IMG/VR virus record: IMGVR_UViG_3300017917_000239
Span: 1 to 51,259 of that record
Source of the DNA: a virus
Length of the DNA stretch: 51,259 bases
Reading direction: 5' to 3' (one strand)
Shown: one piece after another, positions 18,501-49,783 of the stretch
How the letters are laid out: every line of letters starts with the position of its first letter
How positions within the stretch are numbered: the stretch's first letter is position 1
Made by a program: the position numbers and the translations under genes
Notes under the pieces: generated by a model
The model's input: the letters and a program-made list of their open reading frames with translations, nothing else
Told to the model about the DNA's origin: nothing
Databases searched by the model: none

Positions 18501-21500
18501 TGGACATCAAACGGTCAATACACACCTTATGGTTCTACACCATATGACGATTTCCCATACGATATTACTGCACTGGATGTTGCTTCAATCTCATTGAACA
18601 GCGTTAACTATTCAGATACACTTGCTCTTTGGGTAGCAGTAGGTGAAAACATTGTAACTAGTACAGATACATACATTTGGAGAGAGACATTCACATTTGC
18701 TGATAACTTAGTTCACCAATTCAATGGTGTAGACGGTGTTGCAGTAACTAGCTTTGTTGGGTTCGTTGCAGTTGGTAAGGGTCAAGAGTATGATTACTCT
18801 ACTGGAGTAACACAGACGGTAGACAGTAACATGTTGATGACTAGCACTAACGGCTATCAGTGGACAAAGATTAACTCTTTGACTACAAAAGGATTCAACG
18901 GTGTTACAGACAACGGTAGTTTAATTATCGTTGTTGGTGAGAATGGCGTAATTTACTCAAGCGTCAACGGATCACTATGGTTGGGTGTATCAGAATCTCT
19001 AGTATACGGTACTTTTGCTACATCTAACCAAGTAAGTGTTCAAAGTACTTTGGGATTTGCCGTTAATGATAAGATCAGATTTACAAGCTCGTTCGGTTCA
19101 ATCAGTTCTTCAACAGACTATTGGATTAAAACAATAGAGTCATCCTCTGCTGTTACGATTTCTACATCATTGGGTGGCAGTACATTGACATTGAACACAA
19201 GCCAACCGTCAACTAGAACTCAAATGTATCATTACCCAGAAACAGATACATTGAATGATGTACATTTTGCTAACAACTTGTTTGTTGCAGTAGGTGATAA
19301 TGGTATTATCAGAACATCTAGTGATGGTTATGCTTGGACTACACGTACTTCAGGTACTTCTGAGAAATTAAACAGTGTTATCTTTAACACAGACGATTCT
19401 GCATGGATCGTAGTAGGTGACAACAATGTCATTTTAAAGAGTACTAATACTATTACATGGGAAAGCATCTCACTATTCACAGTAGATCCAACTATCTATG
19501 ATGTTCAGGGTAATGAATTTATGTATGGTTACGGTCCTGAAGAATTGGTACCGGGCCTAGTTACTGACAACATTATGATGACTGTTGCAACACGTCCTGG
19601 CACAGATTGGCCGGCCGAAGTATATGCTCATGTTGGATATAACGTTGTTTCTAGAGAGTACACACCAGTGTCAACTACGCAGACTGTCTATAGCTTTGCA
19701 GAAATAGTTCAGACTCCTGCACAATTGACAGTGTTCAGAATTAACGGAACTACGGGTCTAAGCACAACATTATATGGTCCTAACAACTACAACGTAACTC
19801 CTGATTACACCGTAGATTGGGTATCATCAACTGTGACACTAAACGCACCATTAACCGGAACACCATCTGACAGACTACGCATAGATGTGTATGAAACAGG
19901 TAACGGCGACCAGTTAGTAAAAGCTGACACAAAAACAGATCCTATTCGTTTGAACACTACAACGGGTTGGAATGAAATTTATGTCAACTGTAATTATACA
20001 GGCTCTATATTCACTGGTTCAGGTGTAATTCAGCCGGGCAGCGGTGAAAAGAATGCTACTGCTATAGCAACTGATTCTATCAGTGATACTATCTTGTTCA
20101 CTAGTGTTCGTGACTTTAACGTAAACGATCCAATAACATTCCAAGGTGCTGTCTTTGGTGGCATAGAGGAAGATACAGTTTACTACGTAAAAACAGTAAG
20201 CACGGTGTCTAACAGAATCACAGTATCATTGACATATAATCTTTCTACTGGTACACCCGGTCCAACATTCAACTTGACGACTGGTACAGGCGAAATGGTT
20301 GCTATTATAAATGTTGGTTCAGGCGCAACATATACTGATCCATTAGTATATCACAATGGTTCTAAGTTAATCCATGGCGCGACAAGTACTGTTACAAAGA
20401 CAAACGGTAATAGAAATACTATCGTATGTAACACAACAGGTACAATGATTGTAGGAACGAAGATTGTGTTTAGCGACACTATGTTTGGTAATGTAATACA
20501 ACCACAAACTGTCTATTATATTGATAGCATCTATGATGCTAACGAGTTCACTATATCTGAGACTTTAGGTGGTCCTACATTAGAATTGACTACTGCAACA
20601 GGTGGTGCATCGTTCATAACTAGTGACTATGCATTTGGTATTGCCGATAACGGTGTGTCCGCAAAAATCATGTTTGCAAGCCAATACAACTCGCAAGATG
20701 ATTTTATAACTTACACATTGTTTGGACAAACTACACCTGAACAATATGGTTATACTATACCTGAAGTTCAGTACTTCACTGGTGATGGGTCTACAACGGT
20801 ATTCACATTATTGAATAACGATGATTTAGATAACGTAACTAGCGCCGTTGTAGAAATAGATGGATTAAGAGTAACTAGTTCTGAGTACACAATTGATGCG
20901 TTTGCAGATACTATAACTTTTGGGACAGCACCTAGCAACGGGGCAATTATATCAGTTACAACATACAACATTACATTGCGTCAGTATCTAAACACACAGT
21001 ACGGTATTACTGGTAAGAAAGTATCTGCAATCAGCGCAGTATCCAATGCGATTACTCCTGCTATCGCTACTACTAATGTAACTAATGTAGCTGGTTCTAC
21101 AATTACGTGTGTAAGTACTACTGGATTTATTGCAAATCAAACTATAATCTTCAAGGGAACATCGTTTGGTGGAATTAATACTTCTGGATTAGTCTACTAT
21201 GTACGCTCAGGATTTACCGGAACAACATTTACTGTATCATTGACACCGGGCGGTTCAGCAGTGACCTTTGCAGGTGGCTCAGGTCTAGTAGTTGCATACG
21301 TAGGTGGTCAACCTGCAGTTCGTGTTACTACAGCCACTGCACATGGATATACTGACAATGATATCGTTATGATTGACGGTACTTCAGGATCAACTCAATT
21401 GAACAATGAGATATTCTACGCAAAAGTAATCAACTCTGTTCAGTTTGACTTATATGCTCAAGCATATGATCCTGCTTATGCAGCAGTCAATGATCCAATT

Positions 21501-22631
21501 ACTGAAATCTCTGCGTATACCGGTGGAGGCTACACATGGATACAAAATATCTATCCGCTAATAACTGCGGAAGCTACTGGTACAACAGTTATTGTTGACA
21601 GCAATAGAATATTAGGTGATACTACAGCATTGATTGTTGGAACACCTATACTATTCTCATTGTTTGGAACACAGATAGGTGATGTATTGAATTGTGGAAT
21701 CGTAGTAGGAACTACATATTACGTTAAGGAAATATTTAACGTAGGTGAATTCTCTATTTCTGCAACTCGCGGTGGCGCTGAGTTTGAATTGATTGCTGAT
21801 GCACAGAACTTCAACTTCACGCAGTGGGAGCAAGATAATGTTGACAGACTATGGGTTACTGTAAATGGGTATAGAGTTCCTTCTAGCTCATTGAGAATCA
21901 ATCCTAATAACCAAGTCAGCATTTTAACATCTATCACTACAAGTGATGAAGTGATTATTACTAGCATGATTCCTAGCGCAACACCAAACGAAGAAGTGTA
22001 TTTGTTGAATGTAAACCAAGCAAATCAACCTTCTGTATACAGAGCGAACACTAACACCAGAACATGGTTAACTGCTCCTCTATACAACACTTCTAGCTCT
22101 ATACAAGTGGATGATGTTACTAGAATAACTGATACTATCATTCAGGAAGTAACAGCTCCTGCAGCAGTTGATGGTATTACTAGTGTTGGAATAACAGCGG
22201 ATAAGAACATAATTTCTTCTATCACTGTTTACAACCAAACTACTAGCTCATTAGTAACAGACTACGTACTTAACATTGTAGAATTAGCTCCTATTCTAGA
22301 GATATCTTCAGGTGTAAGTACAGGAGATTCGTTAGTAATTACTATTCTTGAGGGCAATCTAATCTATATCAACGGCGAACAGATAAAGTTCACATCTGTA
22401 AACTTAGCAACAAATACGTTGTCCGGTCTACAGAGAGGTACAAATGGTACTGGGGAACAAGCTGTAATTCCATTGTATAGTGAAGTTTTCGGATTATTGT
22501 CCGGAAATAGAATGTCTGATGTAGATTACAACATGGTTTGGAATTCATATAACTACAACACTGTTGACGGAGATCCATTGCAGATTAGCGATACTGATCC
22601 GGCAAGATTCTTAAATACGGATGTTACGTAA
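3561..22631 (+). CDS. Giant gp7-like baseplate wedge / structural protein
   Basis: One uninterrupted frame of 6,356 residues. The start (MATTRIRTLNFLPDIF, then a segment ending KTRTDYQLEPGVVF) matches the protein that follows gp6 in T4-like marine phages and sits in the gp7 position. T4 gp7 is 1,032 residues, so most of this protein is expansion. Visible parts include: a phage tail motif rich in TNFMAIGAASNTVGVTF near residues 740-765; a CBM5/12-like segment near 2107-2150; FG-GAP-like propeller repeats near 2510-3150; a conserved EVKPYHVVVKEF motif near 3690; a second CBM5/12-like segment near 4804-4840; and BNR-like propeller repeats near 4910-5300. A GLTRGVNGT-type motif near 3820 recurs as GLQRGTNGT near 6290. 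About 14 copies of a 70-100-residue module are scattered through it. It probably sits at the baseplate periphery, with the extra modules as adhesive surface. The N-terminal assignment is fairly sure; the roles of the insertions are inferred. Confidence 0.8.
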   Translation: MATTRIRTLNFLPDIFKTPTNAQFLRATLDQIVDQPNTQRIEGYIGSKFGYGINPKDYYVTEPTKTRTDYQLEPGVVFTKENDTTAQDFISYPGIIDALKLEGALTDNNNRLFSEQFYSWDSFTNLDKIINFNQYYWLPNGPEQVIVSADTVFISTDYIVNDAITGYSISTANSGAGSINPTLTLLRGGTYTFAVNQTSQFWIQGEPGLTGYSVAQPNIQTRDVLGVTNNGTTSGIVTFTVPSKNAQDEYNFPGNNQIGVVSTLPFVQVNGARVNDIGGIDGITSLEGLTVMFYNTGVVNESGFISNFFDVTPYDTNNNLVPAASVAVTATSSSGNLITCDTTADMTVGSTITFTGLPFGGLASYSETLPNTLYYVESIVSNTQFTVSLSIGGPAVTLTSATGTMTGNINQGLYEEGFYTPVNNTFYTITYVGDLSNPIIRLVPAGPIPVEQKIIPQYGTEWINRTFYKDINGNISLVPYLSSLLDTLYYQDGTTASKVGVIKLIDSNVTNRIDVDADIVGKPTYTASNGVVFTNGLKVVFQGDIYPASYKTGQYYVEGVGTAIQLIPVGDLIAPESFTVSTYIPYDTTPYDISNYDSDLYIPVVPDYITIARNSINKNAWSRSNRWFHIDVINASATYNNNPNLVTVYATNENKAKRPIIEFYPNLALFNSGAIGKAPVDFIDMRATDAFTQVAGQENYYPDVAAYTTPSASFTGTLLQAGQFVVGQQYKIESVGTTNFMAIGAASNTVGVTFTASGVGSGTGTASRYITQTISATSGYPANTLTCSSTSSFNVNDKIVFTGTVFGGITSGAVYYIKDILSSTSFTISLAQDGDIFPVSTATGSMTATVTTLTATITVANTNLFGSIQVGQYIADSTNLLPTNSLISEIDQTNTTTTITIVWSNDTLFRSTTVASLITTDTTVDNYALFEGSRVIFAVDEDPEVRNKIYVAHFSTVNSSSTPVLTLTVASDGLVLPNEQTVAFRGYNNSGKDFYYNGIEWISSQQKVNANQPPLFDVYDSNGISFGDRSVYVGSSFAGTKLFAYGVASAGLDDTVLGFPIRYSSVDNVGDISFDVSFNSDTFDYVSGTTPITQNVNTGYVYNYTAIDTFERQLGWQTAVAPSVQYQVFQYTYGPTTINTFFLDVAVLPESESAWPVLQVYANNILLDSTAYSYTTTADTTTIVMNTTPLEDQFIQVLLLSNQVSKTAYYTIPINLNNNPLNQDLTVANIGDIRGQYQSIFYNNPNTTGEVFGANNYRDLGNVVPWGNKIIQNSAAMVLPGVFLRKQNHNLFNALMYNSRQYIAFKTLLIDTVNKTAYSRLQTPAEMLDNALDQMAASKTDSEPFFWSDMLPSKAAYVTNTYSFANSLDVSIYPLTRVYDFATANYYGVLVYLVRATNGLVQTTQLIRNVDYTVSETAPSLTVTLDLLPNDQIIIKEYNQTYGSYAPNTPTKLGLYPSFIPGVVLDSSYTIPTYFIKGHDGSYNKLYGEYDSVTGTLVDFRDQALLEYETRVYNNLKLSNVIPIQEYEVLPGFFRETEYTNDEILQIYSETFLNWVGQNRVNYKRQIYNKQDQYSWNYYQSGNKIDKASIQQGNWRGVYQYFYDTTNPDTAPWEMLGYKNQPTWWTDRYGPAPYTSENLVLWGDLAAGIDWNNGNPVVIEQAIRPQLLDVLPVDSEGNLVSPFISLVGNYNSNIFQRDWKVGDAGPTEFSYRRSSSYPFDLMRILALTKPAKFFNLGVDVDHYKYSPEFNQYLVNNRSHLKLSDIDVYGDGTAVTSYINWIVDYEKQVGVAATQNISNLLKNLDVRLVYRVAGFTDKNLLKFYVEKGTPNSRNASLLIPDESYSVLLYDNQPFDRIIYSGVIIQLSKNGYTVFGNSQTEAYFTIQDPVINGNYTTVEVDNLSVKIANDYSKSVSYVPYNTEFYTIQEVSQFIESYGKYLESQGMIFEQTENGIPVTWRQMIAELLYWSQTGWETGSIVTMNPAATLLAIDRENSIVQPLTLRQQNFILNQNLYPIQAQDMSVLRDGTAFTVQPLSQGDTVAYGQFNMSNFEHGIVFDNVTLFNDVIYNTITGLRQTRILTKGTKTAEWNGTVDAQGFILNQDNIQEWNKETKYTTGSIVKYKNKYWIAIKVIQAKEVFDELDWKQTDYNEIQKGLLPNSSTRSYESTLYYDVNKANLENDADLLSFSLIGYRPRDYMALADLTDITQVNVYKNLIKDKGTRNAINAFKGANLPQGGIDYEVYENWAILSGEFGGVLNNNFVEFKINEQYLTGNPSIVGLTNGAPDEGVQQEIPVYSLFNYGRPISDANILATLPPDTPSTVYPTAGYVNFNDVKMVSYFYNNMATAVNQNGTPISLNDFYVRDYVWLADYLGTWQVYTPTSMGQILAAKNNLNGTVTITFATPHNLSKYEAFAIANFDLNVNGYYIATLVIDPYRVIINLNLNPNIVNVTGQGVGLKFQSQRVETPAGIINLPLLDSEFVKNKVWVDTNDDGAWAVYRKGINYQYESEITKENSVTFGSAVAYTSILGYLITDEGDGKAYRYTFNDLTNDYDLVQTISHGSSFGTSVAYSDEIFAISEPTGTAQVHIYELQNTTLVDDLVVYQSPIAARDSSTNWGSALAISGDKNWLYISATDLNRVYVYRLSRLTNEYEYITYITVAGLASSDLFGYSIATDYYGDTVVISAPNKDYSVNIDNWGYTYVFDRSVQNIDALYTTPELSSQTFTLAWTPTTITTAATATSSGTNRITCTSTAGFVTGQPVIFSGSVLGNSNIDPNTVYYILSVVDGTHFTISTTRGGSAFTLATDTGSMVVNVQSTPLYVSVNGTLLEDNGYAVVGSSIVIVEPINAGDIVNVSGNSFTQIQVLTTQETPRVGVHFGQSVDTTTYASEIIVGAPFALSSENQEGAVYRYTNGGGKYGVIIGTSDCNLTTTRNVLLNGYFIAIPAGNAEAVSNYINSSKITNIQASAFNGKLVISLIDNNLATPNEKLILTVTDATTLSELGISVFTQTQVVLCPHKTGPTQFGNVVKFNEAGSFIASAPTGTRYVATTFDFTDDENQDDDTIFDNNTTQWVDTFAYAGAVYMFDYLAVNNESLLTPGNFVYAQSVNALDQEYGSQPMYGHAIDFSSFHVIVGTPNFTSGSSNGQVITYINNLGEQDWSVYRRSSAIVDVDKIQNVQLFSAETNNTLDNLDYMDPLQGKLLGAVRENIDYVSNVDPAGYNITPVAESTQRPLAWKADKVGQIWFNTSAVRFVNYHQNDNTYNSKYWGALFPGSNVAVYTWISSNVPPISYAGPGTPFDIESYSIDYISNPSGALSPVYFFWVRNTNIVFENIGKTLADSVIQAYILAPKSSGIAYFAPLLPNVFALYNCAEYINANDSVLHIGFSTGTNDDVSHSRYSLIRANYADDFLPGLPALTSTDSPQNLYDRMLDSLCGVDETGAVVPNPYLPKAVQIGVLARPRQSFFLNRFLALENYLTYANEVLALYPIAETRQSAFLNKTGEFYNTSDYWSYVNWWSPGYNDNTKSAVQVPIYADLAALEVDTGTIARVAANGDGKAETYIKNADGTWTRIGLNDGTIKFDSALWDYAAARLGFGDNFYDTDLYDQYPSEQTRYIVRALNEQIYTNDLLIYRNKSLILLFEYIQSETIESQNYLPWLNKTSFVDVAHTIRELVPLEVFQSDNQDFLSGYINEVKPYHVVVKEFLFKYTKTEVYEGDITDFDLPAKYNTSVEKFITPELVYSNPSSDNQYLPTSEIWNDPAYTQWFNNFGVSITGQPDYPLSVLESYIALNTSSFAVDNAYGFPINGVIKIGNELIGYSNVDRNLNVISGLTRGVNGTDITAHLPGETIRMDLPAVLVLNSGRGYTEPPKVTAYIDTTIYPEPDEVAQLVAVMNLDKVLSVEVINPGKGYVVLPEIIIDSAVNVTFDSSAVSTLTNTIQLYAPLLVTGDLVKYNVDSGTTPIQGLAVGQWYYVNVLETIPTVTVALYASYNDAVNDSNRVPLYSTGTGPGHVFAEGARASCVSSASPVRENNITLRFDRTTYDSQVIDWLAGRFYGSYYAGTYNNSQSVSSSAITLETTQPPIDSILASAQGVSFEIVDVENDQVVTWSSFIRSVKSTESTNDSIRLSPLDGNNPDLSELEPNASGTTIGFYVGMPVKFKGAAGASGIINDTVYYVKQVLNELDFTISTTVGGSVLALGNQTISAAGLECYVGEVTNTAVMTVNYPGIRTVTNTQKTLNLITAPLNPTGTGGTLGFYVNLPLFFTGNVFGGVIENLTYYVTTVIDSQTFTMSENKDPVVVTIYSANATTDILVGDSTLELSVNDPVIFNTMVIAGSTATSFGGIVAGTTYYISSIINPTQFTISSVVNGGTFDITSTVVAASNTSALMTSQADTVTLSTASGEMTMNVSLPVSPGQVNGQQFTLYTTSGEYVGRTGTNSALIHRTIQKTLTGVNRIAITAASGGLTNVYNNMPIRIESAIGGLSTGTTYYVIENDIIEVEVTSTSSTGNVLNCSSTASLYVDMPIIFSGTGLGTIDLAVEYYVKSIPSSTTFTVTNTPGGLEIAMTNDNGSMTGSGSPYVKVSTSLGGSAVALSTATGPVTLTQYPLGTPSFDVSYILGGYRVIIADGSSGFAVDNTITISGSNLGGVDTTNDLTITVDTVSSTGAITSVICSGTPEGSNDHYYLKVISANQFEVYSNSLMTIPVSGIDFPYHGIVSTTVTAATASNDRFTVGDSSVFAVNDPVVFTGAVFGGVTVGATYYIKTIPSSTTVTISTEIGGTTFNISANDTGTMTMAKFGDFALLPEPFSFNQSVVKYNNRVYRCIISNNDTEFIFGKWELLDSGNRYLNALDRIIGYYQPTANMPGLDLTQLVEGITYPNSTYLGNAFAPEQQFELDTILQDQPFYPTEVDNISITWDGEKYLGASNTPDYSAIIASLTGDEWNITKLANTSLNVTDMIYAGGYYVITTRNAATPIYRSNNGTDWTSNGQYTPYGSTPYDDFPYDITALDVASISLNSVNYSDTLALWVAVGENIVTSTDTYIWRETFTFADNLVHQFNGVDGVAVTSFVGFVAVGKGQEYDYSTGVTQTVDSNMLMTSTNGYQWTKINSLTTKGFNGVTDNGSLIIVVGENGVIYSSVNGSLWLGVSESLVYGTFATSNQVSVQSTLGFAVNDKIRFTSSFGSISSSTDYWIKTIESSSAVTISTSLGGSTLTLNTSQPSTRTQMYHYPETDTLNDVHFANNLFVAVGDNGIIRTSSDGYAWTTRTSGTSEKLNSVIFNTDDSAWIVVGDNNVILKSTNTITWESISLFTVDPTIYDVQGNEFMYGYGPEELVPGLVTDNIMMTVATRPGTDWPAEVYAHVGYNVVSREYTPVSTTQTVYSFAEIVQTPAQLTVFRINGTTGLSTTLYGPNNYNVTPDYTVDWVSSTVTLNAPLTGTPSDRLRIDVYETGNGDQLVKADTKTDPIRLNTTTGWNEIYVNCNYTGSIFTGSGVIQPGSGEKNATAIATDSISDTILFTSVRDFNVNDPITFQGAVFGGIEEDTVYYVKTVSTVSNRITVSLTYNLSTGTPGPTFNLTTGTGEMVAIINVGSGATYTDPLVYHNGSKLIHGATSTVTKTNGNRNTIVCNTTGTMIVGTKIVFSDTMFGNVIQPQTVYYIDSIYDANEFTISETLGGPTLELTTATGGASFITSDYAFGIADNGVSAKIMFASQYNSQDDFITYTLFGQTTPEQYGYTIPEVQYFTGDGSTTVFTLLNNDDLDNVTSAVVEIDGLRVTSSEYTIDAFADTITFGTAPSNGAIISVTTYNITLRQYLNTQYGITGKKVSAISAVSNAITPAIATTNVTNVAGSTITCVSTTGFIANQTIIFKGTSFGGINTSGLVYYVRSGFTGTTFTVSLTPGGSAVTFAGGSGLVVAYVGGQPAVRVTTATAHGYTDNDIVMIDGTSGSTQLNNEIFYAKVINSVQFDLYAQAYDPAYAAVNDPITEISAYTGGGYTWIQNIYPLITAEATGTTVIVDSNRILGDTTALIVGTPILFSLFGTQIGDVLNCGIVVGTTYYVKEIFNVGEFSISATRGGAEFELIADAQNFNFTQWEQDNVDRLWVTVNGYRVPSSSLRINPNNQVSILTSITTSDEVIITSMIPSATPNEEVYLLNVNQANQPSVYRANTNTRTWLTAPLYNTSSSIQVDDVTRITDTIIQEVTAPAAVDGITSVGITADKNIISSITVYNQTTSSLVTDYVLNIVELAPILEISSGVSTGDSLVITILEGNLIYINGEQIKFTSVNLATNTLSGLQRGTNGTGEQAVIPLYSEVFGLLSGNRMSDVDYNMVWNSYNYNTVDGDPLQISDTDPARFLNTDVT
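4549..21810 (+). repeat. Dispersed 70-100-residue beta-module repeat family inside the giant protein
   Basis: A recurring protein module has the pattern: short Thr/Ser lead, xITCxST, F/V-N-D-PIxF-xG-xxFGGI, then TxYYIKxI, then TxFTISxxxGGxxFxL, then TGSMT. Approximate copies: 4549-4785, 5880-6105, 11766-11996, 15980-16170, 16255-16460, 16462-16775, 16900-17030, 17045-17345, 17700-17935, 19015-19200, 20055-20305, 20380-20610, 21070-21300 and 21570-21810. The copies differ strongly in DNA, so they are old or fast-diverging, and they cluster in the C-terminal half. The repeated YY and FTIS strands suggest a small beta-sandwich or Ig-like fold; this is inference, and I do not recognise a named domain. 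Boundaries were judged by eye. Confidence 0.7.
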
Positions 22632-28808: not shown

Positions 28809-30205
28809 TGTCAGAACAAGACAGAATTAAACAGATACGAATTAAAATAGAGAACGAGGCTACGCCTACGTTCTGCCTTGCCAAGTGGCACCACGTAACA
28901 ATGTACTTGCAATCGGGCGAGACACATAGTTGCTATCATCCCCGCCCGCATAAGATTCCGTTAAGCGAATTAGCTGATAATCCTTCAGCATTGCACAACA
29001 CTTACGAAAAGAAATTAGAACGTAAGATGATGTTAGATGGTGGAAAGCCCGAAGGTTGTCAATACTGCTGGAACATTGAAGCAATGGGTCCAGACTATAT
29101 CAGCGATAGACATATTAGAAATAGCAGCATTTTTACAGAGGAGCGTTATGAGCAAACTCTTAAAGGTCCGTGGGATCAAAACATCAACCCTGAATATTTG
29201 GAAATCAACTTCGGGAATGAATGTAATTTTAAATGTGGATACTGTCACCCCAAGTATAGCACCAGATTCTACAACGAGATTAAAGATCACGGTCCTGTCA
29301 CTACAGTAAAGAATCATCGGTGTGACATTGATTGGATGAAATTATATCAGCGTGAGGAAGAAAACCCATACGTTGATGCATTCTGGGAATGGTGGCCTGA
29401 ACTACGCAAGACATTGAACATCATGCGTGTAACAGGAGGCGAACCTACAATGCACAAGAGTACATGGACATTGTTAGACAAGATTAAAGAAGATCCAATG
29501 CCCTGGTTAGAATTGAATATCAATAGCAACTTGGGAACTAAGACTGTATTGATTGAGAAACTAAGCAATAACGTGAAATCATTGTGTGACGAAGGTAAGA
29601 TTCGTAGCTTTAAACTATTCACTAGCCTAGACACGTGGGGCCCACGTGCTGAATATATTCGCACAGGTCTAGATTTAGAGTTATGGGAAAAGAATTTCCA
29701 CACATATCTACAGAACACAAACAGCCCAATTACATTTATGATTACGTTTAACATTTTCAGTGTTACTACGTTCAAAGAGTATTTGGCTAAGTTCTTAGAA
29801 TGGCGTAAGCAGTATGGCTGGTATGACGATAAGCCAACAGACAAGCATAGAGTTAGATTTGATACTCCTTATCTACGTGAACCCTTGCAGTATGATATGA
29901 ATATTCTTCCCAAAGAAGAATTCATGCCCTACATGCATGACGCATTGAAGTTTATGGAAGAACATGTAGACGACAATAAACCAGATGCATTTACTACAGT
30001 TGAGTATGAAAAATTCAAGCGTGTAGTTGACTACATGGCTGAAACTGTTTATCCTGAATCTAAGTTGATTGAGGGCCGCAGAGATTTCTACAATTGGTTT
30101 AATGAGTTGGATGAGCGTAGAGAGACAGATATGCTAGCTGTGTTCCCTGAGTATATGGGGTTCTACAGACTATGCCAAGAAGTTAACCAATTGAATCCAA
30201 AATGA
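28808..30205 (+). CDS. Radical-SAM protein with N-terminal cysteine (twitch-like) region, copy 1
   Basis: 465 residues from ATG 28808, which overlaps the previous TAA as TAATG; a TTG six bases upstream is a less likely start. The radical-SAM motif CNFKCGYC (Cys 139, 143, 146) binds the catalytic 4Fe-4S cluster, followed by TGGEPT for SAM. Four further cysteines (23, 42, 84, 87) come before the core and resemble a SPASM/twitch auxiliary-cluster region placed N-terminally. Such enzymes start radical chemistry with a 5'-deoxyadenosyl radical; the substrate is unknown. First of five consecutive radical-SAM genes. Strong reading-frame overlap suggests coordinated synthesis. Confidence 0.85.
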   Translation: MSEQDRIKQIRIKIENEATPTFCLAKWHHVTMYLQSGETHSCYHPRPHKIPLSELADNPSALHNTYEKKLERKMMLDGGKPEGCQYCWNIEAMGPDYISDRHIRNSSIFTEERYEQTLKGPWDQNINPEYLEINFGNECNFKCGYCHPKYSTRFYNEIKDHGPVTTVKNHRCDIDWMKLYQREEENPYVDAFWEWWPELRKTLNIMRVTGGEPTMHKSTWTLLDKIKEDPMPWLELNINSNLGTKTVLIEKLSNNVKSLCDEGKIRSFKLFTSLDTWGPRAEYIRTGLDLELWEKNFHTYLQNTNSPITFMITFNIFSVTTFKEYLAKFLEWRKQYGWYDDKPTDKHRVRFDTPYLREPLQYDMNILPKEEFMPYMHDALKFMEEHVDDNKPDAFTTVEYEKFKRVVDYMAETVYPESKLIEGRRDFYNWFNELDERRETDMLAVFPEYMGFYRLCQEVNQLNPK

Positions 30206-31497: not shown

Positions 31498-32732
31498 CAA
31501 TCAATATAAACAAAGAACATTTGCTAAATGAAAGTAAAGTGTTTTGCATGTTCCCCTGGATGCATTTGAATGTAACACCTAAGGGTGACATTTATCCCTG
31601 CTGTAGTAATGACTATACAAAGCCCTACGGCAACACTAAAGAAATGTCATTGAAAGAAGCGTTCAATAGTCCTAAGATGAAAGAATTGCGTTTGGATATG
31701 TTAAATGACAGACCAAATTCAATGTGTGATTTCTGTTACAAGCATGAAGATTCAGGTCCTCATTCATTTAGAAACTACAGTAAAGAACAATTCAGCAAAC
31801 ACTTTGACGAAATCGTTCCCACAACACAAGATGATGGAACTGTTCCTGAATTCAAAATGCACTATTTTGATATTCGTTTTAGCAACATTTGCAATTTCAA
31901 ATGTCGTACCTGCGGAAGTGAATTCTCTAGCCAATGGGGAGCAGAAATGCGAGCCAATCACGATCCTAAGCATCCCATTGTAATTCATGCTGATTCAAAG
32001 GGCAACTTGTTGAATGAAGTACTAGAACACGTAGAACATATTGACTTAGCTTATTTCGCAGGCGGGGAACCTACATTAACCGAAGAGCACTATATTATGC
32101 TTGAGGAAATGATTCGCAAAGGCCGCACTGACATTACATTACGATACAATACCAACGCTAGTAATATCAAGTTCAAAGACTATGACTTACTAGACATGTG
32201 GAAACACTTTAAGCGAATTGAATTGAGTTGTAGTATTGACCACTATGGTGAACGTGCAGAATGGCTACGTAGCGGAACTGATTGGGGAGTTGTTGAATCT
32301 AATTTATTGAAGTTCAGAGAATTAGAATACGTTAGTTTCCAAATGAACACTGTGTTCAGCATCTTCAATTACAGTACAATCGCAGAATTCTATCAGTATT
32401 TGAAAGACAAGGGAATTGTTCGTAGAGAAGATTGGTATCATAGTCTATACCTAGCAGTACATCCTAGCTATTATTGTGCGAAATCATTGCCCAAATCATT
32501 GAAAGTAGAAGCTGCAACTAAAGCAATGAATTGGGCAAATAACAATACACAAGATGGAACAAGCTTGTCCAGACTAATTACAGATGCAGTTAACTTTGCA
32601 TCTAGTGACGATACATGGAGTGCTAACAAAGACATTTTCATGCAACATACAAATTCTATAGACAGAATCAGAAATGAAAGTTTATGGAAAACATTCCCCG
32701 AATTAAATAGCTTGAGAGACTTAACAGAATAA
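31494..32732 (+). CDS. Radical-SAM protein with N-terminal twitch-like region, copy 3
   Basis: 412 residues, closest to copy 2. N-terminal cysteines at 18, 36, 37, 78 and 81 in the same spacing (FCMFPWMHL, PCC, CDFC), core CNFKCRTC at 133-140, then YFAGGEPTLT. The start overlaps the previous stop (ATGA). The parallel keeping of the auxiliary cysteines in three paralogues argues that all are active and that they act on different but related substrates or positions; this is inference. Confidence 0.85.
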   Translation: MTININKEHLLNESKVFCMFPWMHLNVTPKGDIYPCCSNDYTKPYGNTKEMSLKEAFNSPKMKELRLDMLNDRPNSMCDFCYKHEDSGPHSFRNYSKEQFSKHFDEIVPTTQDDGTVPEFKMHYFDIRFSNICNFKCRTCGSEFSSQWGAEMRANHDPKHPIVIHADSKGNLLNEVLEHVEHIDLAYFAGGEPTLTEEHYIMLEEMIRKGRTDITLRYNTNASNIKFKDYDLLDMWKHFKRIELSCSIDHYGERAEWLRSGTDWGVVESNLLKFRELEYVSFQMNTVFSIFNYSTIAEFYQYLKDKGIVRREDWYHSLYLAVHPSYYCAKSLPKSLKVEAATKAMNWANNNTQDGTSLSRLITDAVNFASSDDTWSANKDIFMQHTNSIDRIRNESLWKTFPELNSLRDLTE

Positions 32733-43129: not shown

Positions 43130-43876
43130 ATGAAAAAGATAATGTTAATTGCAGGTTGCAGCCACACAGCAGGATCAGAGATTAATGGCACTGAAGATAG
43201 TAAGTATAATCGCCAACACTCGTATGGAAATCAACTTGCATATAAGTTAGGATACGAACCTATTAATTTTGCTGAGCCTGGCTCAACTAACCCTACTATT
43301 GCTAGAAGTGTACTAGAATGGTTCAAGACCAATTACAAACCAGAAGAAATGAAGGTCTTTGTTCTTATTGGTTGGACTGAATCTACACGAATGGAAGTAC
43401 CGTTTCATAGAACATCATGGTATGATTTCCATAACTCATCGCATGACTGGTTTTCTGAATCGGGCAGAGACTATCTACGAATCAATATGGGTTGGGAAGG
43501 AATTGACCCTGAAGAAAGAGAGCTAATTCCCTCTTACCATAGATTTATGGCAAACAACACTCAGTATTTGGAGATAGTCAGTGCCAATGCAGTATTGCAG
43601 TTGCAGTATTTTTTGAAGATGCACCAAGTAGACTATACCATGTGTAACGCTATGCACATGTTCACATCTGACAAACACTTGGATTTCTATACTAGCTTAA
43701 TAGATACCACTAAATATATGCACATGGACGACAATGACCTATCCTTCTATACTAGGTATAAGAATGAAGGGTACACAAATCCTAAAGCTAAGTACTGGCA
43801 TCACGATGAAGTTCCTCATCGCTTGTACGCCGAAGAGTTGTTCAAGTTCATAGGAGAAAACAAATGTTTATCGTGA
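43130..43876 (+). CDS. SGNH-hydrolase-like protein 3
   Basis: 248 residues. Starts KKIMLIAGCSHTAGSE, the block I position with Ser; FAEPGSTNPTIAR is the Gly/Asn block; the HHDEVPHRLYAEEL region near the C-terminus offers the catalytic His. A short acidic segment (GTEDSKY) follows block I. It begins 10 bases after the radical-SAM gene and overlaps the 32-residue ORF at its end. Probable sugar O-acyl esterase or transferase. Confidence 0.6.
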   Translation: MKKIMLIAGCSHTAGSEINGTEDSKYNRQHSYGNQLAYKLGYEPINFAEPGSTNPTIARSVLEWFKTNYKPEEMKVFVLIGWTESTRMEVPFHRTSWYDFHNSSHDWFSESGRDYLRINMGWEGIDPEERELIPSYHRFMANNTQYLEIVSANAVLQLQYFLKMHQVDYTMCNAMHMFTSDKHLDFYTSLIDTTKYMHMDDNDLSFYTRYKNEGYTNPKAKYWHHDEVPHRLYAEELFKFIGENKCLS

Positions 43877-43962
43877 GATTTTTCAAATATCTAGTACGTG
43901 AATACAAGTACCGTAAGCGCATTAAAGAACTACGTAAAAGAGATCCGTTTATTTACAAATGA
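43864..43962 (+). CDS. 32-residue basic micro-ORF
   Basis: A short frame beginning inside the end of the SGNH gene (13-base overlap) and ending in an ATGA overlap with the carbamoyltransferase start. The product starts MFIVRFFKYLVREYKYRKR and continues with basic helix-forming residues, ending DPFIYK. The hydrophobic start followed by a strongly basic helix suggests membrane-surface or nucleic-acid binding. The exact spacing between two genes argues for real translation, perhaps mainly as a coupling device. No family recognised. Confidence 0.5.
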   Translation: MFIVRFFKYLVREYKYRKRIKELRKRDPFIYK

Positions 43963-45440
43963 ATTATATCGGTATAAGTGCAGGCTTCCATGATGCAGCA
44001 GTGTCAGTAATTGACACGGATGGTAATATAGTCTTTGCTGGTCACAGTGAACGTTATAGTAAGATAAAGCACGACAAGAATCTGTGCCCTGAAATCATAA
44101 AAGATGCGTTAACACACATTCCATATTACGGTGACTTTGAAGTTCACTACTATGAACGTCCTTGGTTGAAAACACTACGTCAACTACGCACAGGTGAACC
44201 TCGTACTAGTATGTTTGTTAAGGACGTTATAGGTAAAGACATTCATAAATTACTACTTAACAAGAAAATACATACACACAACCATCACTTGAGTCATGTA
44301 GCCGCAGGCTTTCAAACAAGCCCCTACAATGATGCTACTGTAGTAGTTATTGACGCTATCGGAGAGTTTGATACTATCAGTATTTGGCATGCAGAGTATG
44401 ATAAAAACGGCAAAGCAAAGTATAAGAAACTATGGGGTAGAAAATATCCTGATAGTATTGGATTGTTCTATTCAGCTATGACTGAAAGAGTAGGATTGCG
44501 CCCACTGGACGAAGAATACATATTGATGGGCATGGCTGCATATGGAGAACCTAAGCACGTTAAAGAAATGCTATCATTGATTAACGATGCAGTCAACATT
44601 GACTTTAAAGAAAATCTTCATATCGGAGTAGATAAAGATTTCATTTCTGATGGCAATGAAATGGACATCGCTAGTTCAGCACAACATATAGCTGAATGGT
44701 TAATTAAAATGGTCATGGCTAAAGCAAGAGAAGTCGGATCAAGCAAGAACCTTGTATACGGCGGTGGCGTTGCACTTAATTGTTTAGCAAACAGACTCTT
44801 AGGAGACTATTATGAGAATATTTGGATTATGCCTAATCCTGGCGATGCTGGTTCTAGCTTGGGCGCTGCCTGTCTCGGCTATGGTAAACGTGTTAACTGG
44901 GATAATAGCTTTATTGGTCATTGTATTGAAGGCAGCTATCCCACTAATGTTATTCTTGACCATTTGCTTAGTGATAGGATTGTTGGGGTTGCTAGCGGTA
45001 AAGCTGAGTTCGGCCCAAGAGCCCTTGGAAACAGAAGCCTACTCGCCGACCCAAGAGGACCAGAAATAAAGGATAAAGTAAATGACATTAAACGCAGACA
45101 GAAATTTAGACCCTTTGCTCCTGTCATTTTGGAGGAGCATGTTGATGACTATTTTGATATGCCTCGTGGCTTCAGTAACAGTAGGTATATGCAAGTCATC
45201 GCTCGTTGCAGGCATCCTGACTTATTTCCTGCTATCGTTCATCATGACGGGACTAGTCGTGTTCAGACAGTTCCGAAAGATGGATCAGGAATCAGAGAAC
45301 TCCTTGAAAAGTGGTACGTATTAACCGGCTGTCCTATGCTATTGAATACATCACTGAATATACGAGGTGAACCTATGGTCAATGACCGAGGTGATGCTGA
45401 CAGATTTGAAAAACTTTACAATGTAAAAGTCATTTCATAA
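43959..45440 (+). CDS. Carbamoyltransferase of the NodU/TobZ/CmcH type
   Basis: 493 residues. GISAGFHDAAVSVI at the start and HNHHLSHVAAGF (His 109, 110, 113) form the metal-binding/adenylation part of the N-terminal Kae1-like domain; GGVALNCLANRLL and PGDAGSSLGAA complete it. The C-terminal YrdC-like part carries FGPRALGNRSLLADPR near 350 and NTSLNIRGEPMV near 470. Enzymes of this family use carbamoyl phosphate and ATP to carbamoylate hydroxyls on sugars and antibiotics. In this operon a glycan hydroxyl is the likely target. The second half of the gene carries two overlapping +1-frame ORFs and shows unusual codons there. Confidence 0.85.
   Translation: MNYIGISAGFHDAAVSVIDTDGNIVFAGHSERYSKIKHDKNLCPEIIKDALTHIPYYGDFEVHYYERPWLKTLRQLRTGEPRTSMFVKDVIGKDIHKLLLNKKIHTHNHHLSHVAAGFQTSPYNDATVVVIDAIGEFDTISIWHAEYDKNGKAKYKKLWGRKYPDSIGLFYSAMTERVGLRPLDEEYILMGMAAYGEPKHVKEMLSLINDAVNIDFKENLHIGVDKDFISDGNEMDIASSAQHIAEWLIKMVMAKAREVGSSKNLVYGGGVALNCLANRLLGDYYENIWIMPNPGDAGSSLGAACLGYGKRVNWDNSFIGHCIEGSYPTNVILDHLLSDRIVGVASGKAEFGPRALGNRSLLADPRGPEIKDKVNDIKRRQKFRPFAPVILEEHVDDYFDMPRGFSNSRYMQVIARCRHPDLFPAIVHHDGTSRVQTVPKDGSGIRELLEKWYVLTGCPMLLNTSLNIRGEPMVNDRGDADRFEKLYNVKVIS
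44812..45069 (+). CDS. Overprinted membrane-protein ORF A, inside the carbamoyltransferase gene (+1 frame)
   Basis: 85 residues in the +1 frame. AGGAG at 44801-44805 sits 6 bases before the ATG. The product starts MRIFGLCLILAMLVLAWALPVSA, a signal-peptide-like hydrophobic stretch with a possible signal-peptidase AxA-like site (VSA), followed by two more hydrophobic segments (about 27-47 and 48-65) and an acidic polar tail ending TQEDQK. Size and topology are like small holins. The host gene is a conserved domain here, so chance is possible, but the host frame uses rare CTC, CTT and AGG codons in this stretch, as expected for dual coding. Reported as a candidate. Confidence 0.4.
   Translation: MRIFGLCLILAMLVLAWALPVSAMVNVLTGIIALLVIVLKAAIPLMLFLTICLVIGLLGLLAVKLSSAQEPLETEAYSPTQEDQK
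45082..45324 (+). CDS. Overprinted membrane-protein ORF B, inside the carbamoyltransferase gene (+1 frame)
   Basis: 80 residues, same frame as ORF A and 12 bases after its stop. AAAGGA (45068-45073) lies 8 bases before the ATG. Polar N-terminus (NADRNLDP), two hydrophobic segments at about 18-37 and 41-61, then a charged C-terminal tail (RQFRKMDQESENS). This is a two-segment topology typical of class II holins or small antiholins. Together with ORF A it could form a lysis pair. The evidence is open frame, ribosome site, topology and pairing only; no homologue is recognised. Confidence 0.35.
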   Translation: MTLNADRNLDPLLLSFWRSMLMTILICLVASVTVGICKSSLVAGILTYFLLSFIMTGLVVFRQFRKMDQESENSLKSGTY

Positions 45441-45448
45441 GTAGATGT

Positions 45449-48400
45449 ATGTTAAGAGATGTATTTTACTACGGACAAAAACCCAACGCCCACCCAAGAG
45501 AGAAATTTGCACAAGATTTAGATGACGCAAGAAGACAATCCACTACTGAACATTTTTGGATTATAAACGAATTCTGCGACTACATCAAATTTGACTGGGA
45601 TTTTGATTTTGAATTCTTGCACGATGATGATGTGTGGGCAGAGAATCACAACAACGTTTGGCCTAGTAAGTATCAAAAAGATTCTGGCACATGGTTATGT
45701 GCTAAAGAATTCAGTGCAATAATAATCTATCGCAATGACGTAGATCCTGTTCCTAGAAAAACAGTATCACATAAGCATTGGCAAATACTATCTCCCATTG
45801 ATGAAACTAAATTTGACTTTGGATGGCATCCCGATCCAACGGATCCTCCCTACATATATGTGTGGGGCAATCAATGGTATCCCGGCACAATAATGCCTAC
45901 AGTAGAGTACCACGTTGATGGCGCGACACAAAGAAAATACGTTGAATCTAGTTTAGCTATCTTAGTAGAGCAGCCGAACAACTTTGAAGTGTTTGAAGAT
46001 ATTGAACATTTTGACTATAGTTGGGTTCCTAATCCAACTAGCCCTCCGTATATCTATGCGTGGGGCAACCAATGGAATGATCCCGAAGATAAAATCTCTG
46101 TTCAGTATGTAGTAGAAAGTGCGACTGAATATAAGTTCATGCACAATAATACAATGCGTAAGCCATGCATGGACAACTGGGAAGTTCCTACTGACGTTGA
46201 TGTTAGTAATTTTGACTTTAGTTGGGAGCCTAGTCCTGCAGAGCCACCATTCATATATCAGTTCGGCACACAATGGCAAAAGACAGGCGGACCTCGTTAT
46301 CTAGTTGAAGGTGCAACTGAAATCAAGTATATTGATGTGTTAAAGGCTAAAGCATTACCTTCTACTGAGAATTGGACGTTACCTTCTAACATTGACTTAG
46401 ATAACTTTGACTTTAGTTGGCATCCAGACGCTACTAGTCCGCCGTATATCTATTATTTTGCAACTCAATGGGCATTGAGTGGTGGCCCGGTGTATACAGT
46501 TCCGGGAGCAACTGAAGTAAAGTATGTAGAAGATATACAAGCAAAGGCGTTGCCGGACAAGACAAACTGGGAAGTTCCTGCATTCATTGATAGTGATAGT
46601 TTTGACTTTAGTTGGCATCCATATGTAGAAGACGAACCGTACATATATCAATTTGGTACACAACATCAAAAGACAGGTGGACCAAAGTATATTACGCCAG
46701 GCTGTCATAAAAATAGTCCTGTTAAGTACATTGACACACGTATCTTAAAGGCAAAACGTCTTCCTTCTAAGCAAGGCTTTACACATGTAAATGGCTTAAC
46801 CATTGAAGATTTTGATTATTCATGGCACCCTGATACAACAGAAGAACCTTATATCTACAAGTTCGGTAGTCAATGGTATCCTGCAGAGATACTTCCTGCA
46901 ATTGAATATGCAGTACCGGGCGCAACACAAATAAAGTATGTAACAGATATTATTGCTACATTAGCACCTAGTAAGGAAAATTGGGAAGTCCCTGAAAATA
47001 TTGCACAGTATGAATTTGATTTTAGTTGGGTGCCTAACCCACATGATCCTCCATTCATCTATCAGTTTGCCACTCAGTGGCAAAAGACAGGTGGCCCTCG
47101 CTACATTGTAGCGGGAGCAACGGATGTAAAGTACATGGACAACATTAAGGCTCGTAGGTTGCCTTCCGATCAGTATTGGGAAATGCCTGCCAAAGTTAAC
47201 ATAGCAAAGTTTGATACTAGCTGGCACCCTGATGCTACTGAAAGTGCGTATATCTATCAGTTCGGTACACAGTGGGTGTTAACTGGCGGTCCAAGATACG
47301 TAGTGCCCGGCGCGACAGAAGTTAAATTTGTTGAGGAAAATCTTGCGATAGCAGGTCCTGATATGACTCATTGGGTCACGCCTTCTGATATAGATAGTAA
47401 ATCATTTGACTATTCTTGGCACCCGCACCCCGATGACCCTCCTTTCGTCTATCAGTTTGCTACTCAGTGGCAAAAGACAGGTGGACCAAAGTATATTGCA
47501 GATGGTGCCACTGAAGGTGTTACTGCTGTAAAATACATTGACGGTCGTATTTTAAAATCTAAGCGTATGCCTAGCAGGAACAATTGGGTTATTGACAATG
47601 AAATTGATGTTAGTAACTTTGACTTTAGTTGGCATCCTGATGCAAACAGTCCTCCCTACATCTATCAGTTCGGTACGTTGAGTAACGATAAAGACGGTCC
47701 TCGTTACGAAACACCTGATAACAACGGAGAGATAGTTTACTTAGAAAGAACAAAATTAAAAGATGATGAAATTGTGTTGCCTCACTATTTCATTGAAACT
47801 ACATTAGAAGCACTAGCTGAGAAACACCCTAACGAAGTATTCTGGGCGTTAAACCCTGACATTGATTATTCTGCTTTTGACTTTAACTGGCGCCCGCATA
47901 TTGAACAAGCTAAGTATGTTCATGCATTCGGATCAGAAGAAAACATCAACACACAAACTTACTTTGTGTCGGGTCCCATGTGGCATCAAGGCAACAGAGA
48001 AATTAACTATGTTGAAAAGAAAGTAGACTTCAAATATGTGATTGACATGTTCTTTGTGGACAGGGGCAACAATGAATCTACTAAGAGATTTGAAAGATTA
48101 AAACAACAGTTTGGTAACAGGATTCAAAAAACTCGCTATCTAAACAGTTGGGTTGATACGATTAATCGCTGTATCAATCGCTCTTCCTCAAATCTATGCT
48201 GGATACTGAACAGTGAGTTAGACTATTCTAATTTCAACTTTGATTATTACCCCAATCCATGGCAGATGAAGATGGTTCATGTGTTCGGCACACAATGGAG
48301 TCATTGGGGAACTACGTTCATGGTCAATCGTGAAACATTCTCTACTGATACCAAATACGTAAAGATTATTGAACATCTTCCTAATCTAAACTTTGTAAAG

Positions 48401-49783
48401 GACAGAACTGCAATTGCTACAAACTGTTTATATGATGTTCATCTAGTAGATCATGGTAATAGAAGTGTTACTAAGGTCCTTAGAACAATTCAAAGTCGTG
48501 TAGGAGATAAGCCGGTTACACTAGTCAAGTATCAAGACAGCTACTTTGAAACATTCAAAGAATTATTAAACATACTTCCTGAAAAGAAAGAACATTACAT
48601 TTGGATATGTTCTAGTGTTTGTGACTACAATCAATTTGATTTTAGTTATATCTGCGATCCTTATGCTAAGGAACAGTTACATGTATTCCCTAGCGATAGA
48701 CAGAAGTTCGGTGACACATTCTTAGTTAACGTTAACAAGTTGCGTGAACTAATCACGGACATGTCTAAACTAGAAGAATACACTAAGATAAATTACAATC
48801 AACATCAACGTGTTGCTAGACTACCTGCTCCTTCTATTATCACTGAAGGAGATACTCATGTGTCTAGTATCAATACTGACTTTGACTTCCCGTATGCAAT
48901 CTTTACAGCAAACGACAACACTAACAACGGTGTGATTGATACAGAACCAATGTCATTGTGGTCAACAGAACACAAAAACATTATTGTTACTACTGCGGGT
49001 GCAACTAGAATTATTGTACCAAAAGAAGCTAAACAACATATCAAGCGTGAACTGTATGATTATCCATATATCAAGACTAATAGTAAGTTGGGCAAGTCTA
49101 CACCAATGGACATCGTGTTTTTGAGTAATGGCGAAACAGGAGCTGATGCAAATTATGAACATTTGCTTAGAGTTACACATGGCTTGCCAAATCGTGTTGT
49201 AAGAGTTGACGGTGTAAACGGTCGTGTGCAGGCATATCACGCTGCTGCGGAAGCAAGTAACACTCCTTGGATGTTCACAGTGTTTGCTAAGTTGAAAGTC
49301 AGTAACAAGTTTGATTGGAACTGGCAACCTGATAGAATGCAATTGCCTAAGCATTATGTATTCCACGCTAAGAATCCTGTAAATGGCTTAGTATATGGTC
49401 ACCAGGCTATGATTGCGTACAACAAGAAGATCACACTAAAGAACAATGGTAAGGGTCTTGACTTTACTATGGATGACGAACATGAGATTGTTCCTATACT
49501 TTCAGGTGTTGCAAACTTCAATACTGATATTTGGTCAACATGGCGTACAGCATTCCGTGAAGTTGTTAAGTTAAAATCTGACACAACTGACGAAAGCAAA
49601 GAACGTTTAGAAGCATGGATGACAAAAGCTACAGGTGATTACAGTGAATGGTGCTTACGAGGCGCACAGGACGCAAGTGAATACTTTGACAGTGTAGGTG
49701 GAGACTTCTTTGAATTGCGTGACAGTTATGAATGGGCTTGGTTAAGGAATCGCTTTGATACATTATATCCGGATAACAAATGA
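45449..49783 (+). CDS. 1,444-residue repeat protein with C-terminal glycosyltransferase-like domain
   Basis: 1,444 residues in three parts. Residues about 1-780 are roughly ten tandem copies of a 65-residue unit with core FDFSWHPDxxxPPYIYQFGTQWQKTGGP and ending GATEVKYV. Residues about 790-1110 hold longer, less worn copies preceded by a strand such as DMFFVDRGN or DVHLVDHGN, so each complete unit looks like a glycosyltransferase-type alpha/beta domain whose first half is missing in the tandem units. Residues about 1219-1444 are a related domain (DIVFLSNGETGADANYEHLL, RVDGVNGR, HAAAEAS, WRTAFREVVKL), homologous to the 317-residue protein at 27855. No signal peptide. Probable role: sugar transfer or glycan binding with many acceptor-binding units. 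Function not proven. Confidence 0.65.
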   Translation: MLRDVFYYGQKPNAHPREKFAQDLDDARRQSTTEHFWIINEFCDYIKFDWDFDFEFLHDDDVWAENHNNVWPSKYQKDSGTWLCAKEFSAIIIYRNDVDPVPRKTVSHKHWQILSPIDETKFDFGWHPDPTDPPYIYVWGNQWYPGTIMPTVEYHVDGATQRKYVESSLAILVEQPNNFEVFEDIEHFDYSWVPNPTSPPYIYAWGNQWNDPEDKISVQYVVESATEYKFMHNNTMRKPCMDNWEVPTDVDVSNFDFSWEPSPAEPPFIYQFGTQWQKTGGPRYLVEGATEIKYIDVLKAKALPSTENWTLPSNIDLDNFDFSWHPDATSPPYIYYFATQWALSGGPVYTVPGATEVKYVEDIQAKALPDKTNWEVPAFIDSDSFDFSWHPYVEDEPYIYQFGTQHQKTGGPKYITPGCHKNSPVKYIDTRILKAKRLPSKQGFTHVNGLTIEDFDYSWHPDTTEEPYIYKFGSQWYPAEILPAIEYAVPGATQIKYVTDIIATLAPSKENWEVPENIAQYEFDFSWVPNPHDPPFIYQFATQWQKTGGPRYIVAGATDVKYMDNIKARRLPSDQYWEMPAKVNIAKFDTSWHPDATESAYIYQFGTQWVLTGGPRYVVPGATEVKFVEENLAIAGPDMTHWVTPSDIDSKSFDYSWHPHPDDPPFVYQFATQWQKTGGPKYIADGATEGVTAVKYIDGRILKSKRMPSRNNWVIDNEIDVSNFDFSWHPDANSPPYIYQFGTLSNDKDGPRYETPDNNGEIVYLERTKLKDDEIVLPHYFIETTLEALAEKHPNEVFWALNPDIDYSAFDFNWRPHIEQAKYVHAFGSEENINTQTYFVSGPMWHQGNREINYVEKKVDFKYVIDMFFVDRGNNESTKRFERLKQQFGNRIQKTRYLNSWVDTINRCINRSSSNLCWILNSELDYSNFNFDYYPNPWQMKMVHVFGTQWSHWGTTFMVNRETFSTDTKYVKIIEHLPNLNFVKDRTAIATNCLYDVHLVDHGNRSVTKVLRTIQSRVGDKPVTLVKYQDSYFETFKELLNILPEKKEHYIWICSSVCDYNQFDFSYICDPYAKEQLHVFPSDRQKFGDTFLVNVNKLRELITDMSKLEEYTKINYNQHQRVARLPAPSIITEGDTHVSSINTDFDFPYAIFTANDNTNNGVIDTEPMSLWSTEHKNIIVTTAGATRIIVPKEAKQHIKRELYDYPYIKTNSKLGKSTPMDIVFLSNGETGADANYEHLLRVTHGLPNRVVRVDGVNGRVQAYHAAAEASNTPWMFTVFAKLKVSNKFDWNWQPDRMQLPKHYVFHAKNPVNGLVYGHQAMIAYNKKITLKNNGKGLDFTMDDEHEIVPILSGVANFNTDIWSTWRTAFREVVKLKSDTTDESKERLEAWMTKATGDYSEWCLRGAQDASEYFDSVGGDFFELRDSYEWAWLRNRFDTLYPDNK
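45779..48730 (+). repeat. Tandem 65-residue W/H/Y-rich protein repeat array
   Basis: Approximate copies: 45779-45960, 45970-46160, 46171-46350, 46369-46555, 46561-46770, 46771-46970, 46975-47170, 47171-47365, 47366-47575, 47578-47760, then degenerate longer copies at 47840-48010, 48197-48360 and 48595-48730. Each starts near W-x-V-P-x-x-I-D, passes FDFSWHP and PPYIYQFGTQW, and ends at the GATEVKY stretch. The middle copies are also alike at DNA level (for example recurring GACTTTAGTTGG), so they expanded recently; the outer ones are older. Confidence 0.75.

Follow-up and report, generated by a model that had tools for sequence, protein, structure and literature searches.

Two consecutive open reading frames, ORF1 and ORF2, nested in frame +1 within a carbamoyltransferase gene, are very probably both protein-coding overprinted genes for membrane proteins that are kept by selection, as judged from the window (the whole 51,259-nt stretch of DNA that was analyzed) and from homologues of the gene. 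The first-pass annotation of this DNA had proposed such a pair, and the proposal is strongly supported: the +1 frames are open in most homologues, and synonymous variation is reduced. The placement, frame, and lengths that it gave for the two ORFs proved correct, as did the ribosome sites, AGGAG before ORF1 and an AAAGGA-type sequence before ORF2; both ORFs start with ATG (Table 1).

Table 1. Features of the overprinted locus, in window coordinates
Feature	Position	Strand	Evidence
Host frame, Nol-like carbamoyltransferase, 493 aa	43959..45440	+	PF02543 E 2.7e-36, PF16861 E 1.4e-47, phrog_1601 E 5.8e-95
ORF1, probable overprinted gene in +1 frame, 85 aa, ATG start	44812..45069	+	0 +1 stops in 88/153 homologues, 4-7 expected each
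ORF2, probable overprinted gene in +1 frame, 80 aa, ATG start	45082..45324	+	0 +1 stops in 110/153 homologues; stop ratio 0.25
ORF1 ribosome site region (TTAGGAGA)	44798..44805	+	Read from sequence; AGGAG precedes ORF1
ORF2 ribosome site region (AAAGGA-type)	45066..45078	+	Carbamoyltransferase codons 370-373
+1-frame TAA stop abutting ORF2 ATG	45079..45081	+	From GTA at V374

Probably a fragment, the 51 kb virus record that makes up the window carries a baseplate wedge gene at one of its ends. It also holds several radical SAM genes, a nucleotide-sugar epimerase gene, and one giant phage protein, a 6356-aa open reading frame at 3561-22631. The host gene of the two ORFs encodes a phage Nol-like carbamoyltransferase in which both the PF02543 and the PF16861 domains were found. 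The gap between an SGNH-like gene and the carbamoyltransferase gene is spanned by a short ORF at 43864-43962 (MFIVRFFKYLVREYKYRKRIKELRKRDPFIYK, 32 aa), which overlaps the carbamoyltransferase ATG as ATGA and whose product appears to be small, basic, and amphipathic. On the other side, 45449-49783 encodes a 1444-aa protein with many repeat copies like FDFSWHPDATSPPYIYQFGTQW...GGPRYIVPGATEVKYV, and no Pfam or PHROG matches were found for it.

Within the single gene of the window, the evidence for overprinting is suggestive only. The first-pass annotation had pointed to an unusual codon choice in the overlap, and this was borne out. For instance, CTC made up 3 of the 13 Leu codons there compared to 8 of 1114 elsewhere in the window, AGG 3 of 14 Arg codons compared to 19 of 537, and GAG 4 of 8 Glu codons compared to 186 of 841. 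Codons ending in A were scarce (GTA, 2/12 in the overlap versus 522/1142 elsewhere in the window; ATA, 1/12 versus 253/1080), and the frequency of A at the third position was 0.16-0.21 in the overlap zone compared to 0.29-0.37 in the rest of the gene. Three or fewer +1 stops over codons 285-455 were obtained in only 2 of 5000 synonymous resamplings that followed the codon usage of the window (mean near 11), in 45 of 5000 when codons were shuffled within the gene, and in about 20% when they were shuffled inside the overlap only. What sets the zone apart is therefore which codons it uses rather than how they are ordered. The length of the ORFs is by itself unremarkable, because the window holds two further +1 ORFs of 90-92 codons.

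The comparison was then extended to homologues of the gene. An initial scan with the carbamoyltransferase yielded 47 loci. In the ORF1 zone, about half of these had normal numbers of +1 stops and the other half almost none; codons 1-284 were normal for +1 stops in nearly all of them. When ORF1, ORF2, and an alignment of carbamoyltransferases were also used as queries, the number rose to 269 loci in addition to that of the window; all of them had the carbamoyltransferase gene, and the non-redundant set (under 95% identity) comprised 153 genes. In this set, 314 +1 stops were seen in the ORF1 zone against 740 expected, and 99 against 390 in the ORF2 zone. Since ORF-based scans favor carriers, a separate analysis was made of the 91 genes that carbamoyltransferase queries had reached. 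These gave 268/450 (0.60) for the ORF1 zone and 72/240 (0.30) for the ORF2 zone, with 37 genes free of +1 stops in the former and 59 in the latter. A profile of five frames placed strong +1 stop depletion only at codons 286-356 and 376-435, which are the two ORFs; outside them, the +1 ratio was roughly 0.75-1.1. Thus, the alternative frame is open across homologues beyond what chance would give. The ORF1 zone was also bimodal, with no stops in 66 of 74 genes of high +1 hydropathy compared to 4 of 47 genes of low hydropathy.

The start signals followed the same division. The ribosome sites and start codons overlie conserved carbamoyltransferase peptides, LLGDYYE and KDKVND, so on their own they prove little, and the informative part is the codon choice across homologues. 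The ORF1 start site was ATG or TTG in 82 of 88 genes carrying ORF1 versus 18 of 56 lacking it, and AGGA or GGAG was found upstream in 61/88 versus 14/56. Counting against ORF1, 54 of the 88 copies start with TTG, and 27 have no AGGA/GGAG site. The signals of ORF2 were more uniform: 107 of 110 carriers start with ATG, AAGGA was present in 97/110 carriers versus 7/29 noncarriers, and K371 was encoded by AAG in 98/110 versus 9/29 (background near 40%). In 98 of the 110 carriers, V374 was encoded by GTA (background near 37%), which creates the TAA right before the ORF2 ATG. This TAA was retained with or without ORF1; it therefore isolates ORF2 and is alone no proof of coupling to ORF1.

Another indication came from the codon context. 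When genes were selected by their +1 hydropathy, scored without stop codons, Leu, Ile, and Val codons ending in TA accounted for 1.9% in front of A and 2.2% in front of G, positions at which a +1 TAA or TAG would form, compared to 48% in front of C. Similarly, codons ending in TG occurred 0 times out of 155 before A (+1 TGA) compared to 36% before G. Because this avoidance hinges on the next base, it is not explicable by a simple avoidance of codons ending in A, and selection against +1 stops was the only explanation we could find. The hydrophobicity of ORF1 also exceeded what its host sequence would give. Over codons 285-328, the mean +1 Kyte-Doolittle value was 1.84 in ORF1 carriers versus 0.61 in their synonymous resamplings (mean z, +3.2), compared to 0.68 versus 0.56 in genes lacking ORF1 (mean z, +0.3). 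At four-fold sites of the same codons in the first homologue set, the group with ORF1 had 59% T and 11% A, and the group without it had 39% T and 28% A. For ORF2, the hydropathy z was +1.3 in carriers and +0.85 in noncarriers, meaning that most of its hydrophobicity would come from the carbamoyltransferase sequence anyway; the case for ORF2 therefore depends on stops, synonymous rate, and start codons.

Synonymous variation was lower in the overlap, and in ORF1 the reduction was absent from pairs that lack the ORF. Among 22 independent close pairs in which both genes carry ORF1, synonymous codon differences were 0.200 over codons 285-328 versus 0.349 over codons 1-284, compared to 0.321 versus 0.343 in 14 pairs without ORF1. 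Exchanges between A and T made up 6 of 83 four-fold-site differences in codons 285-328 of carriers versus 21 of 85 in noncarriers. The corresponding values for ORF2 were 0.214-0.226 versus 0.368 (27 pairs), with just three pairs lacking ORF2, too few for a contrast. Taken across many divergent phages, these gene comparisons show that selection holds the +1 frame open, keeps it hydrophobic in ORF1, and retains the start signals.

Could an open, hydrophobic +1 frame simply be a chance result of the carbamoyltransferase sequence and its codon usage? In the +1 frame, the third base of the host codons, usually rich in T, becomes the second base and so favors hydrophobic residues; the ribosome sites and ATGs coincide with conserved peptides; and the window has its other long +1 ORFs. 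However, the depletion of stops among homologues far exceeds the codon-usage expectation, the avoidance is specific to the formation of +1 stops, and values are normal in relatives that lack the ORFs as well as in distant cellular and marine carbamoyltransferases (43-52% identity), in which observed +1 stops were near expectation. The window's other long +1 ORFs, both inside radical SAM genes, fail the same test: against their own homologue sets, the one at 31705-31983 (92 codons) had a ratio of 0.87 and the one at 29037-29309 (90 codons) a ratio of 0.77, and both are probably due to chance. In about 500 tests (60-codon windows, five frames, three neighboring genes), the ratio never fell below 0.61, and in the +1 frame it never fell below 0.69. 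A by-product of this kind is thus very improbable.

A constraint on the DNA or RNA, such as a regulatory element or structure, or a gene on the antisense strand might also deplete stops, and over codons 286-315 the codon-aligned antisense frame is nearly as depleted as the +1 frame (0.35 versus 0.33). But the open antisense frame is short (54 aa), the ORF2 zone is not depleted in antisense (1.01 versus 0.24 for +1 at codons 406-435), and no antisense or RNA model predicts that codons would be avoided according to whether the following base completes a +1 stop. On these three grounds an antisense gene or RNA element was rejected and seems highly unlikely. ORF1 might also be read after a +1 frameshift of the ribosome and form the hydrophobic tail of a truncated carbamoyltransferase; its overlap with the carbamoyltransferase frame along its entire length would fit this. 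Against this, in 57 of 88 ORF1 carriers codon 281 has TA as its last two bases and is followed by a Gly codon, which creates a +1 stop four codons ahead of the start (in the window, a TAG contained in the ORF1 ribosome site region), and the start codon is at 285 in 82 of the 88. For ORF2, a TAA stands directly before the ATG in most carriers. The frameshift fusion was rejected on the upstream stop and the start codon at 285, and we give it hardly any credence.

With two overprinted genes as the preferred reading, ORF1 and ORF2 would have originated as +1-frame overprints of the phage carbamoyltransferase gene. Ribosomes would start internally on the carbamoyltransferase message, each ORF having its own start and Shine-Dalgarno site, and would make two small, very hydrophobic proteins located in the inner membrane. 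ORF1 is hydrophobic over residues from about 2 to 62 and has a polar acidic tail; AlphaFold2 predicted one long helix (residues 2-69; mean pLDDT, 81), which probably represents two spans. ORF2 was predicted as a two-helix membrane hairpin (residues 11-36 and 40-76; mean pLDDT, 72), with net positive charge before the first helix and after the second and a charged C-terminal tail. All 77 ORF1 and 107 ORF2 proteins examined contain a span of 19 residues whose Kyte-Doolittle value exceeds 1.6. By hydropathy and predicted helices, both are therefore small proteins with one or more transmembrane spans, as holins are.

Searches for relatives returned little. Neither ORF had a match of any kind in Pfam or PHROG, holin families included, no relatives were found in 50,697 phage records, and there were no fold matches in BFVD or, for ORF2, in PDB. 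Among 37 related records, the carbamoyltransferase locus was the only strong match per record, with no stand-alone copies, and one related record had a single marginal ORF2 match, with stops. The T4 holin PF11031 was not found in 40 related records. The first-pass annotation knew of no such arrangement, and neither the papers nor the records searched contained one: no nested ORFs are annotated wholly inside the nearest annotated phage carbamoyltransferase, and the literature search on overlapping genes in phage carbamoyltransferases found nothing relevant.

On a gene tree built without the overlap region, ORF1 and ORF2 each underwent about 16 state changes, a rough count given the modest branch support. 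Both ORFs were present in 69 genes, ORF2 only in 34, ORF1 only in 11, and neither in 16. The two are separable, as each can be lost without the other, and the simplest reading of the distribution would be a gain within the phage group followed by repeated separate losses. Independent-pair tests on the tree went in the right direction but were underpowered. The number of changes suggests that both ORFs are real but dispensable. In five loci (L158, L168, L174, L178, and L194), ORF1 is open and the ORF2 zone has 4-6 stops, a natural contrast for the loss of ORF2.

As to function, the first-pass annotation had suggested nested lysis genes of the holin/antiholin or spanin type. Of these, a spanin pair is unlikely and was rejected: a two-component spanin has a periplasmic coiled coil and an outer-membrane lipoprotein, whereas both proteins here consist largely of long hydrophobic helix and have short tails, and reading the sequences by eye revealed no lipobox, no lipoprotein look, and no long periplasmic domain or coil. 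A holin-like role is plausible only. It fits because ORF2 is predicted to form a hairpin and because lysis genes have a known habit of arising by overprinting. However, the repeated separate loss of both ORFs points to non-essential functions and argues against an essential holin, so that a role in lysis or its timing at the membrane is put forward tentatively. The proteins may instead serve superinfection exclusion or counter membrane-linked defenses of the host, for example, in the manner of T4 Imm, which with Spackle confers superinfection exclusion (PMC7677548). The many separate losses, about 16 changes each, are typical of accessory functions, but searches by sequence and by fold matched no protein of this kind, and this reading is as tentative as the one for lysis. 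Lysis timing, superinfection exclusion, and anti-defense thus appear about equally open to ORF1 and ORF2, and another membrane role would account for the rest. That this separable, de novo-born pair in a glycan-modification gene might be the lysis-control (holin/antiholin-type) system of a diverse large myovirus group is more doubtful.

To our knowledge, few long same-strand overprinted genes of large DNA phages have been proven, and such genes tend to be left out of genome annotations. Here, a metabolic, sugar-modifying gene common to more than 100 divergent tailed phages would conceal two protein families without a relative in the phage records searched. Their presence, absence, and repeated loss offer a natural experiment on the birth, retention, and loss of overprinted genes, and the codon-context test for +1 stops is applicable across phage genomes. 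Should either protein act in lysis or exclusion, it would also close a functional gap for these phages.

Several known systems share some of these features. As in Rz/Rz1, a gene is nested out of frame in another and the products are membrane proteins, but the host gene of ORF1 and ORF2 is no spanin, and the two ORFs do not overlap each other. With about 70-80 aa, a predicted two-helix hairpin, and net positive charge on both flanks, ORF2 resembles class II (two-span) holins of the S21 type. Unlike these, it has no Pfam or PHROG holin match, no lysis cassette was recognized beside it, and it was lost repeatedly. T4 Imm is a small two-span inner-membrane protein, and by this description ORF1 and ORF2 are similarly small, hydrophobic, and accessory; however, they matched nothing in family searches, and the T4 imm gene is not overprinted. 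The closest functional precedent would be the embedded lysis genes of RNA phages. The sgl genes of single-stranded RNA phages are often wholly embedded and were repeatedly born de novo, their products are small with a transmembrane span, and more than half of the functional ones are contained entirely within rep, in its +1 frame (PMC7693330). Like the products of sgl genes such as MS2 L, ORF1 and ORF2 are small membrane-span proteins embedded in the +1 frame of another gene. Unlike them, they occur in large DNA phages, as a tandem pair, conserved across a deep group, in a metabolic carbamoyltransferase gene, and their role in lysis is putative.
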